Assembly (NCBI GenBank): GCA_030608765.1
Contig: JAUWDN010000032.1
Coordinates: 1 to 7,856, forward strand
Direction of reading: 5' to 3'
DNA: 7,856 bases
From: Promethearchaeota archaeon
Lineage (GTDB): Archaea > Asgardarchaeota > Lokiarchaeia > Sigynarchaeales > SOKP01
The position numbers were made by a program, and so were the translations under genes. Below, piece by piece: positions 328 through 4,574 of the stretch; within the stretch, counting starts at the first letter, position 1; each line of letters begins with the position of its first letter. The notes under the pieces are model-generated. The model worked only from the letters and a program-made list of their open reading frames with translations. It did no database searches and had not been told where the DNA came from.

Positions 328-810
328 TTAATTTGCTTCCGAAAGGAGTGTAACTTTACCACCAGCAGACTCAATTTTCTCAATAGCTCGTTTTGAAGCT
401 TTGTCAACTGTTAGATTAATTTTTTTATTAATATCTCCACGGCCTAAGATTTTTTGGACATTAATATCTTTTAAATTGATAGTGTAAGTATTTCCCGTCT
501 TAGTAGCAACATTTTTTAGCGTGAGATCTTCAATTTTTGAATCTAAATCTTTTATGTTTAGAGCGTTTACGTGGTAAATTCTGTTAATGTCTTGGGGTCG
601 TTTAAAACCTCGTTTTCCGAAATCCCAATCTGGGTCTGGAAATCCAAGTTCTTTTTGTTTGAGATAATAGGATTTCTTACTTTTCTTCCATTGGGTTGTT
701 TTTCCTTTACCAGCCCTTTGACCCGCTTTTCGGTGTTGTCCAACTCTTCCATACCCTTGCGTACGAGTTCCTCTCATTTTCCGTATTCTTTTAGGAAATT
801 TTCGCGTAAT
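328..810 (-). CDS. rpl15: 50S ribosomal protein uL15 (L15), apparent ATT start
   Basis: Large-subunit protein uL15, archaeal/eukaryotic (L27a-like) type, 160 residues with the start chosen here. The N-terminal part carries the conserved basic Gly-rich signature RGTRTQGYGRVGQHRK (13-28), followed by QRAGKGK, which threads into 23S rRNA. The globular C-terminus ends with the usual SAGGKV element (148-153). The first ATG in frame (775-777) would start at MRGTRTQ and drop TRKFPKRIRK, a basic stretch matching the N-termini of archaeal and eukaryotic homologues. The frame stays open to a TGA (817-819), and the only position with correct SD spacing is ATT at 808-810, 7 bases after AAGGTG. No ATG, GTG or TTG is available in frame. 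Last gene of the cluster. If ATT is a sequence error, the protein is the same. Confidence 0.92.
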   Translation of the reverse strand: MTRKFPKRIRKMRGTRTQGYGRVGQHRKAGQRAGKGKTTQWKKSKKSYYLKQKELGFPDPDWDFGKRGFKRPQDINRIYHVNALNIKDLDSKIEDLTLKNVATKTGNTYTINLKDINVQKILGRGDINKKINLTVDKASKRAIEKIESAGGKVTLLSEAN

Positions 811-815
811 ATCAT

Positions 816-823
816 ATCACCTT
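816..823 (-). promoter_or_regulatory. Ribosome binding site of rpl15
   Basis: Minus-strand AAGGTGAT complements the archaeal 16S rRNA 3' end (AUCACCUCC). From the last G of GGTG there are 7 bases to ATT at 810. An out-of-frame ATG at 813-815 lies only 2 bases away, which is too close by the spacing used elsewhere in this cluster. The site therefore decides the start. Confidence 0.75.
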
Positions 824-4178: not shown

Positions 4179-4562
4179 TTAATAGACATAACATAAAGTC
4201 ATACCGCCGATATGTTTTTCTTCGGCTTCTTTCATGGTCATAATACCTTGATTTGTTGTAAGCAGAATTATTCCTAATCCTGGTGCTGGAAGTAGTTTTT
4301 TTTCTAGCGATTCAAATTGAGAAATGTTGTAATTAAGCCTCATTAAACCAGAGCAGTGATTTATTTTGCTCAACAAGGCTATTTTGAATTTTCCTTGCCT
4401 ACCATCGTCATACCTTTCAAATTCCCCGATATATGCGTGTTGTTGAAAGATACGAAGAACCATTTGATTTAATTTCGAAGCTGGGCTAACTACCACTTCT
4501 TTTTTTCGTGCTTTTTCTGCATTCTTAAGGTCGTTACACATATCGGCCAGTGTATTTGTTAT
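4179..4562 (-). CDS. rps8: 30S ribosomal protein uS8 (S8), apparent ATA start
   Basis: Small-subunit protein uS8, archaeal/eukaryotic (S15a-like) form, which binds the central domain of 16S rRNA. With the start chosen here it has 127 residues, normal for archaea. It reads MTNTLADMCNDLKNAEK, matching the family N-terminus with its conserved LAD and NAEK. Later motifs are YIGEFERYDDGRQGKFKIAL (43-62), INHCSG, LLPAPGLGIILLTTNQGIM (88-106) and the closing EEKHIGGMTLCYVY. The first in-frame ATG (4539-4541) removes the NTLAD part of the conserved first helix and lies 27 bases from the SD site. The frame upstream contains no ATG, GTG or TTG before a TAA at 4566-4568; ATA at 4560-4562 is 6 bases after a perfect GAGGTG. 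An A/G sequence error would restore ATG. Confidence 0.93.
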   Translation of the reverse strand: MTNTLADMCNDLKNAEKARKKEVVVSPASKLNQMVLRIFQQHAYIGEFERYDDGRQGKFKIALLSKINHCSGLMRLNYNISQFESLEKKLLPAPGLGIILLTTNQGIMTMKEAEEKHIGGMTLCYVY

Positions 4563-4568
4563 TTTTTA

Positions 4569-4574
4569 CACCTC
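4569..4574 (-). promoter_or_regulatory. Ribosome binding site of rps8
   Basis: Minus-strand GAGGTG matches the archaeal anti-SD (CACCUC) over all six bases, the strongest SD in the window. It is followed by TAAAAA and then ATA. No other start-like codon lies within 5 to 10 bases. This fixes the rps8 start at a non-standard codon. Confidence 0.8.

Follow-up and report, generated by a model that had tools for sequence, protein, structure and literature searches.

Start codons AUU, AUA and AUC in Shine-Dalgarno-led ribosomal protein genes and in the aIF1 gene of Lokiarchaeia: probable translation starts with a possible regulatory role

At which codon is translation of the ribosomal protein uL15 initiated in a Lokiarchaeon whose uL15 frame holds no ATG, GTG or TTG (referred to here as standard start codons) between the in-frame stop at 819-817 and the ATG at 777? 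The question is raised by a window of 7,856 nt, i.e., the whole stretch of DNA analysed, which carries the spc ribosomal operon of a Lokiarchaeon on its minus strand with uL15 (rpl15) as the last gene of the run, and whose closest relatives are MAGs of Candidatus Lokiarchaeota or Lokiarchaeia. At 1-276 of the plus strand a hydrophobic ORF was seen, convergent with the end of the operon. On the minus strand the uL15 leader reads AAAGGTGAT ATGAT ATT ACG CGA AAA TTT CCT AAA AGA ATA CGG AAA ATG AGA GGA, whereby GGTGAT occupies 821-816 and ATT follows 5 nt further on at 810-808, TAT and GAT being the only codons between the in-frame stop and this ATT (Table 1). An earlier note on this DNA had proposed that rpl15 starts at this AUU, seven bases after GGTG; its coordinates and the spacing it gave proved right, and the lack of an ATG, GTG or TTG in frame ahead of ATG 777, as described there, was confirmed on the minus strand.

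Table 1. Coordinates in the window of the uL15 and uS8 features discussed in the text
Feature	Position	Strand	Remark
uL15 (rpl15) CDS	328..810	-	160 codons and stop, AUU start; translation ITRKFPKRIRKMRGTRTQGYG...SEAN*
AUU start codon of uL15	808..810	-	relatives show ATG, ATT or ATA in this column; no standard codon from in-frame stop to ATG 777
Shine-Dalgarno AGGTGAT of uL15	816..822	-	complementary to the 16S 3' end GGATCACCTCC; 5-nt spacer to AUU
In-frame stop TGA ahead of uL15	817..819	-	3 codons upstream of AUU
Short out-of-frame ORF from ATG 815	774..815	-	judged irrelevant; ATG absent in G008, G009 and G010
Internal ATG 777 of uL15 (MRGTRTQ)	775..777	-	not the start; AAG in G008 (L005/L142); ATG also in genomes with an upstream ATG start
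uS8 (rps8) CDS	4179..4562	-	AUA start; relatives have ATG or TTG in the column
AUA start codon of uS8	4560..4562	-	first ATG 7 codons downstream; preceded at 2 codons by an in-frame stop
Shine-Dalgarno GAGGTG of uS8	4569..4574	-	6 nt before AUA

Relatives of uL15 were found in 95 of the 97 genomes searched, and 67 leaders, i.e., those of 66 related loci and of the window, were read. In ten of them the interval from the upstream stop to the gene body is free of standard starts, and all ten have ATT or ATA in one shared column, 6 nt after GGTGA: ATT in the window, G001, G009 and G010 and ATA in G008 (the five such genomes of genus g1), and ATT in five genomes of genus g8 (G051-G055). The same column reads ATG in the rows of g2, g3 and g6 and in part of g1, often with ACA or ACG as the next codon, and in another part of g1 (e.g., G012) as well as in much of g8 the ATG stands one codon downstream of it. 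Four further leaders (L017, L024, L028 and L029) have ATT in the column together with GTG or ATG 1-3 codons upstream and are ambiguous. MAGs of two genera were in this way found to keep AUU (in one case AUA) in the column of AUG, and the start proposed earlier for rpl15 is borne out by its conservation across independent genomes, by the homology of its column to AUG and by its Shine-Dalgarno spacing, next to the synonymous-only change up to codon 777 and the case of G008, which are taken up below. One uL15 match (G006:C188:435-908) was observed to contain an in-frame TAA.

Starts of this kind were also found in other ribosomal protein genes. For the survey, 17 gene families from 59 loci (the window and 58 named Lokiarchaeia loci) were aligned to their usual start, and a start was counted as non-standard if the interval from -6 to +2 codons around the start column was free of ATG, GTG and TTG; contig-edge rows were dropped, as were 16 misaligned rows, namely L171 and L174 of uS3, L160 of uL5 and 13 of uS5, which were misaligned or had another start further off. 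Forty-one starts without a nearby AUG, GUG or UUG were obtained, and all 41 are AUU, AUA or AUC (collectively AUH), with none of CUG, ACG, AAG and AGG among them. They belong to uS14 (17/50), uL15 (11/59), uS8 (9/52), uS3 (2/39) and eS4 (2/48), the uS8 cases being the window and eight other loci with ATA and no standard codon near. The sequences come mostly from MAGs, and rows next to each other are related; the named loci and those with G handles overlap in genomes, and their counts are not additive. On the tree of the 58 loci at least 13 changes between AUH and standard starts were counted for the five genes (5, 2, 3, 2 and 1), whereby the five changes of uL15 count the four ambiguous leaders as standard and some of the five depend on these. 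Eight of the 17 AUH uS14 genes have no AUG, GUG or UUG in their entire reading frame and an in-frame stop three codons upstream, so that internal starts are excluded for these eight. A pattern for uS14 starts (GGTG, 4-9 nt, AUH-PQGK) matched 21 of 227 genomes of the phylum, including 17 of the 19 g8 genomes; the four matches outside g8 are probably due to chance, given that three genomes were matched by the reversed pattern used as a control.

Further families were read from loci captured by motif (26 of 27 for uS4, 19 of 27 for uS11 and 14 of 30 for uS12), which revealed AUC in 8 of 26 rows of uS4, ATA or ATT in 2 of 19 rows of uS11 and ATA or ATC in 4 of 14 rows of uS12, two of the latter with GTG inside the Shine-Dalgarno sequence, while for eL19 a single genome shows ATA, closely preceded by GTG and TTG. 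Three families assigned from their sequences to uL1, uL10 and uS7 have standard starts in all rows read (29, 29 and 30, respectively). In the family assigned on the same basis to uL11, four of 26 rows are without a standard codon near the column, which reads ACG, ACA or CAG; these rows count neither for nor against a non-standard start of uL11, as the column proved to lie inside the gene and insertions are present in these genes. Five uL11 loci (L292, L306, L308, L316 and L318) share a 28-nt frame-breaking insertion at the same site and other loci break further upstream, perhaps owing to short introns. A separate observation concerns the N-termini of uS5 in the window's genus, which hold Q/R/N-rich stretches of variable length (e.g., L139, L143 and L151). 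By a post hoc hand tally, 7 of 12 small-subunit families and 2 of 15 others have AUH starts (p 0.037), and an over-representation of small-subunit proteins is only suggestive. As to genes outside the ribosome, the small membrane-like protein A_19 (G054, 700-900 kb) has ATA after GGAG, with ATG in G055 and TTG in G051, and is one candidate for a non-ribosomal AUA start. Besides uL15 it was all that was obtained from comparing orthologues of G054 with G055, G051 and G052, where the 134 pairs (standard start in both for 75, in one for 20 and in neither for 39) are clouded by antisense and upstream-extended frames. A statistic of in-frame versus out-of-frame codons after GGTGA in 400 kb of G054 yielded too few sites.

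What accompanies the AUH starts is a strong Shine-Dalgarno sequence; the 16S 3' tail with which such sequences can be compared, GGATCACCTCC, was read in G055 (L220). A match of at least 5 nt was found for 40 of the 41 AUH starts as compared with 277 of 705 AUG, 12 of 33 GUG and 21 of 44 UUG starts, the difference between AUH and AUG corresponding to a Fisher p of about 8e-15 when related rows are counted singly. Gene by gene, AUH and standard starts with such a match number 16/17 versus 3/33 for uS14, 9/9 versus 18/41 for uS8, 2/2 versus 6/33 for uS3, 11/11 versus 33/47 for uL15 and 2/2 versus 43/45 for eS4. The eS4 gene is uninformative in this respect because 43 of its 45 standard starts have the match too, and as the standard starts of uL15 likewise often have it, the link between Shine-Dalgarno strength and AUH comes mainly from uS14, uS8 and uS3.

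The start codon of the fidelity factor aIF1 was then read, by frame or anchored motif, together with that of aIF1A. A SUI1 domain (PF01253) above the curated cut-off was identified in 26 of 30 Lokiarchaeia genomes, corresponding to 27 aIF1 loci, of which 26 were readable (L241, being masked, was left out). Twenty-three of these 26 genes start with AUU and one (L250) with AUC, the loci (L239-L263) belonging to five genera. Each of the 24 is preceded at 2-4 codons by an in-frame stop, the interval holds no standard codon, and further into the gene a standard codon first occurs at residues 9 to 106. The other two genes (one in G042, the other the second copy in G058) have ATA plus an in-frame GTG or ATG upstream; the G058 copy (L264) is diverged, its start being ATA or an ATG which overlaps the Shine-Dalgarno sequence. 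An interrupted Shine-Dalgarno sequence, GGTTGTGA, stands in 23 of the 24 AUU/AUC leaders. Reading frames of at least 45 codons end no closer than 85 nt upstream of the aIF1 genes, so that translational coupling is unlikely. The control, aIF1A, begins with ATG, GTG or TTG in all 28 readable Lokiarchaeia loci, a set outside which stand L394, which gave an antisense frame, and L408, which gave no row. Among 29 aIF1 loci of other Asgards, 12 start with AUG, seven with AUA without a standard alternative, three with AUA and an ambiguous alternative, and two each with CUG, GUG and UUG, one being unreadable; ten more Asgard loci comprise two with CUG, one with GUG, two with UUG, two with AUG, one with AUG or UUG, one unclear and one unread. 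In some of these other families (L358, L371, L431 and L433) a CUG start is apparent, and some relatives have GUG. A non-AUG start of aIF1 is widespread in Asgards without being universal, and AUU was seen as its start only in Lokiarchaeia. In all 15 non-Asgard aIF1 loci an ATG stands in frame close to the usual start position. Six NCBI entries for aIF1 begin with MKDD, which fits AUU read as Met, and others start 21 residues late (e.g., P0034 and P0048).

Based on position, conservation, the coupling to Shine-Dalgarno sequences, the lack of an alternative start and the unchanged tRNA anticodon, the AUH codons are very probably genuine translation starts in Lokiarchaeia. The AUU of uL15 would be read by the ordinary initiator Met-tRNA (anticodon CAU), whereby the strong and closely spaced Shine-Dalgarno pairing would compensate the mismatch at the third codon position, and uL15 would represent one case of a lineage-wide use of AUH in Shine-Dalgarno-led ribosomal genes and in aIF1. 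As regards their function, the leading explanation, to which we give slightly less than an even chance, is that AUH starts serve regulation via an aIF1 feedback resembling that of IF3 and eIF1. Weak starts would be kept as a means by which aIF1, through discrimination against non-canonical start codons, holds down its own production and adjusts that of the AUH ribosomal genes in parallel. Such discrimination is reported for the S. solfataricus factor in work cited in PMC6237735 and PMC8211752; if the Lokiarchaeia factor, whose gene starts with AUU or AUC in 24 of the 26 readable cases, discriminates likewise, a self-limiting loop would follow naturally. The regulation of ribosomal genes is less clear, as it has a problem of sign: a shortage of aIF1 would increase their output, and it is not evident that such a response would be homeostatic.

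In the ribosomal genes, plain output tuning by a weak codon combined with a strong Shine-Dalgarno sequence is the main rival. A non-regulatory reading assumes that the AUH starts are real and carry no regulation, the strong Shine-Dalgarno sequence allowing drift of the third position away from AUG to be tolerated, and is well possible, if somewhat short of an even chance. That AUH and AUG alternate at one column in related genomes, and that a strong Shine-Dalgarno sequence nearly always accompanies AUH, speaks for this reading. The distribution of AUH over genes speaks against it, as in the surveyed families AUH was found in ribosomal proteins and aIF1 but not in aIF1A, uL1, uL10 and uS7, and so does aIF1 itself, which keeps AUU or AUC across five genera without a close upstream gene and with an interrupted Shine-Dalgarno sequence in 23 of 24 cases.

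An altered decoding or mRNA maturation, with a second initiator tRNA or a modified one at work, or with an AUG brought to the start by RNA editing or by the splicing of a short intron, is improbable. All three AUH codons are in use, as an initiator blind to the third base would allow, and the short frame-breaking insertions of Lokiarchaeia uL11 genes may be introns; but the 5' pattern of the initiator tRNA was found once each in 53 of 65 genomes and its anticodon is CAT (CAU) in 30 of 30 read, no single base edit converts A, U and C alike to G, and the constant spacer from Shine-Dalgarno sequence to AUH together with AUG in the relatives' column is not predicted by splicing. Those 30 anticodons gave no sign of a changed code, none other than CAU being met. 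In 23 of the 30 Lokiarchaeia initiator tRNA genes (L108-L137) the sequence is interrupted after the anticodon, presumably by an intron, and some have an apparent insertion further on; ARAGORN returned no initiator tRNA in six loci tried, and a first pattern had matched 1 of 65 genomes, with tRNA introns as the suspected reason. Initiation in Lokiarchaeia, as judged from these genes, seems to tolerate a mismatch at the third position.

The remaining readings bear on the start of uL15. Initiation at the internal ATG 777 (MRGTRTQ...), which would leave the upstream basic stretch untranslated, is very improbable: this ATG is present in the window and many relatives, but G008 has AAG instead and offers no further standard codon before residue 44 of 160, the ATG has no Shine-Dalgarno sequence at the right distance, an ATG upstream opens this stretch of uL15 in other genomes, and neither uS14 nor aIF1 can be explained in this manner. 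Moreover, from the AUU up to codon 777 the five AUH genomes of g1 differ only synonymously; over the 11 codons after the start six synonymous steps and one non-synonymous step were counted, the latter being codon 777 itself (AAG in G008). In nine g8 rows the extension shows 10 synonymous versus 6 non-synonymous steps, a weaker constraint than in g1. A start at the next codon, ACG, or a frameshift from ATG 815 is hardly credible, as ACG does occupy the site of ATG in the G012 clade but is replaced by TCA in G054 and by ACA in G009, in G010 and in four of the five strict g8 rows, and as ATG 815, which opens an ORF of 13 codons out of the uL15 frame with its stop at 776-774, is not conserved: G001 has it, G008, G009 and G010 are without it and still carry ATT or ATA, and hence it is not the uL15 start. 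A sequencing or assembly error (a base lost or gained, or a miscalled ATG) is practically negligible. In its favour, an indel of two bases might go unnoticed in the ATAT-rich leader, and ATG 815 lies one base out of frame; but the identical AUU recurs in independent MAGs from different studies, with a differing leader sequence in G009 and G010, and neither an extra base nor an ATG at 810, both of which the earlier note had considered, was seen in the window or its closest relatives. The relatives rule out such an error for the group, and conservation of ATT or ATA in ten leaders at the same column excludes both chance and sequencing error for uL15. With internal ATG 777, ATG 815 (as uORF or by frameshift), ACG and sequencing error rejected, the sequence comparison supports AUU 808-810 as the only plausible start of uL15 translation.

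For the proposed regulation by AUH starts, the closest known system is infC of E. coli, which encodes IF3, starts at AUU and is subject to autoregulation. The earlier note had likened the uL15 start to that of infC; the likeness stands and is extended by aIF1, the functional counterpart of IF3, which in Lokiarchaeia itself starts at AUU, so that in both systems the gene of a start-codon fidelity factor begins at this codon, while a regulatory role of the codon would follow only by analogy. In Lokiarchaeia several ribosomal protein genes share the codon, and the feedback is predicted from the analogy. PMC4611024 describes IF3 as discriminating against triplets without a 3' G (AUU, AUC and AUA). 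The resemblance of aIF1 and IF3 is held in PMC6412873 to be convergent. Eukaryotic eIF1 (SUI1), for which autoregulation through an AUG in poor context is given in PMC6237735, is a homologous factor of the SUI1 family that likewise has a weak start of its own; there the weakness lies in the poor context of an AUG, whereas in Lokiarchaeia it is the codon itself (AUU/AUC), accompanied by a Shine-Dalgarno sequence. AUG, GUG and UUG are named as archaeal start codons in the review PMC7531240, and compared with such Shine-Dalgarno-led starts the operon position, the Shine-Dalgarno sequence and its spacing are alike in Lokiarchaeia, the difference being an AUH codon without 3' G. No report of AUH starts in archaea was recognised in the literature searched, which comprised titles and some abstracts, subscription papers and preprints apart.

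If the AUH starts are genuine, a major lineage of archaea has AUU, AUA and AUC among its functional start codons, and gene callers would easily truncate or miss aIF1 and genes like uS14, in which standard starts can be absent altogether. It could furthermore be tested in archaea close to eukaryotes whether the weak-start control of eIF1 predates eukaryotes. It is possible, though on balance doubtful, that Lokiarchaeia and those Asgards with AUA or CUG starts of aIF1 run a fidelity circuit, in which aIF1 would limit itself through its own AUU or AUA codon, and uS3, uS4, eS4, uS8, uS11, uS12, uS14 and uL15, with AUH starts and strong Shine-Dalgarno sequences, would form a regulon that reads out how much aIF1 there is relative to free 30S subunits, and from which the eukaryotic eIF1 loop may descend. 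Were this circuit to hold true, self-limitation of a fidelity factor by a weak start would be found in bacteria, Asgard archaea and eukaryotes. For archaea close to eukaryotes, the AUH starts hint at a layer of translation control that has gone unrecognised.
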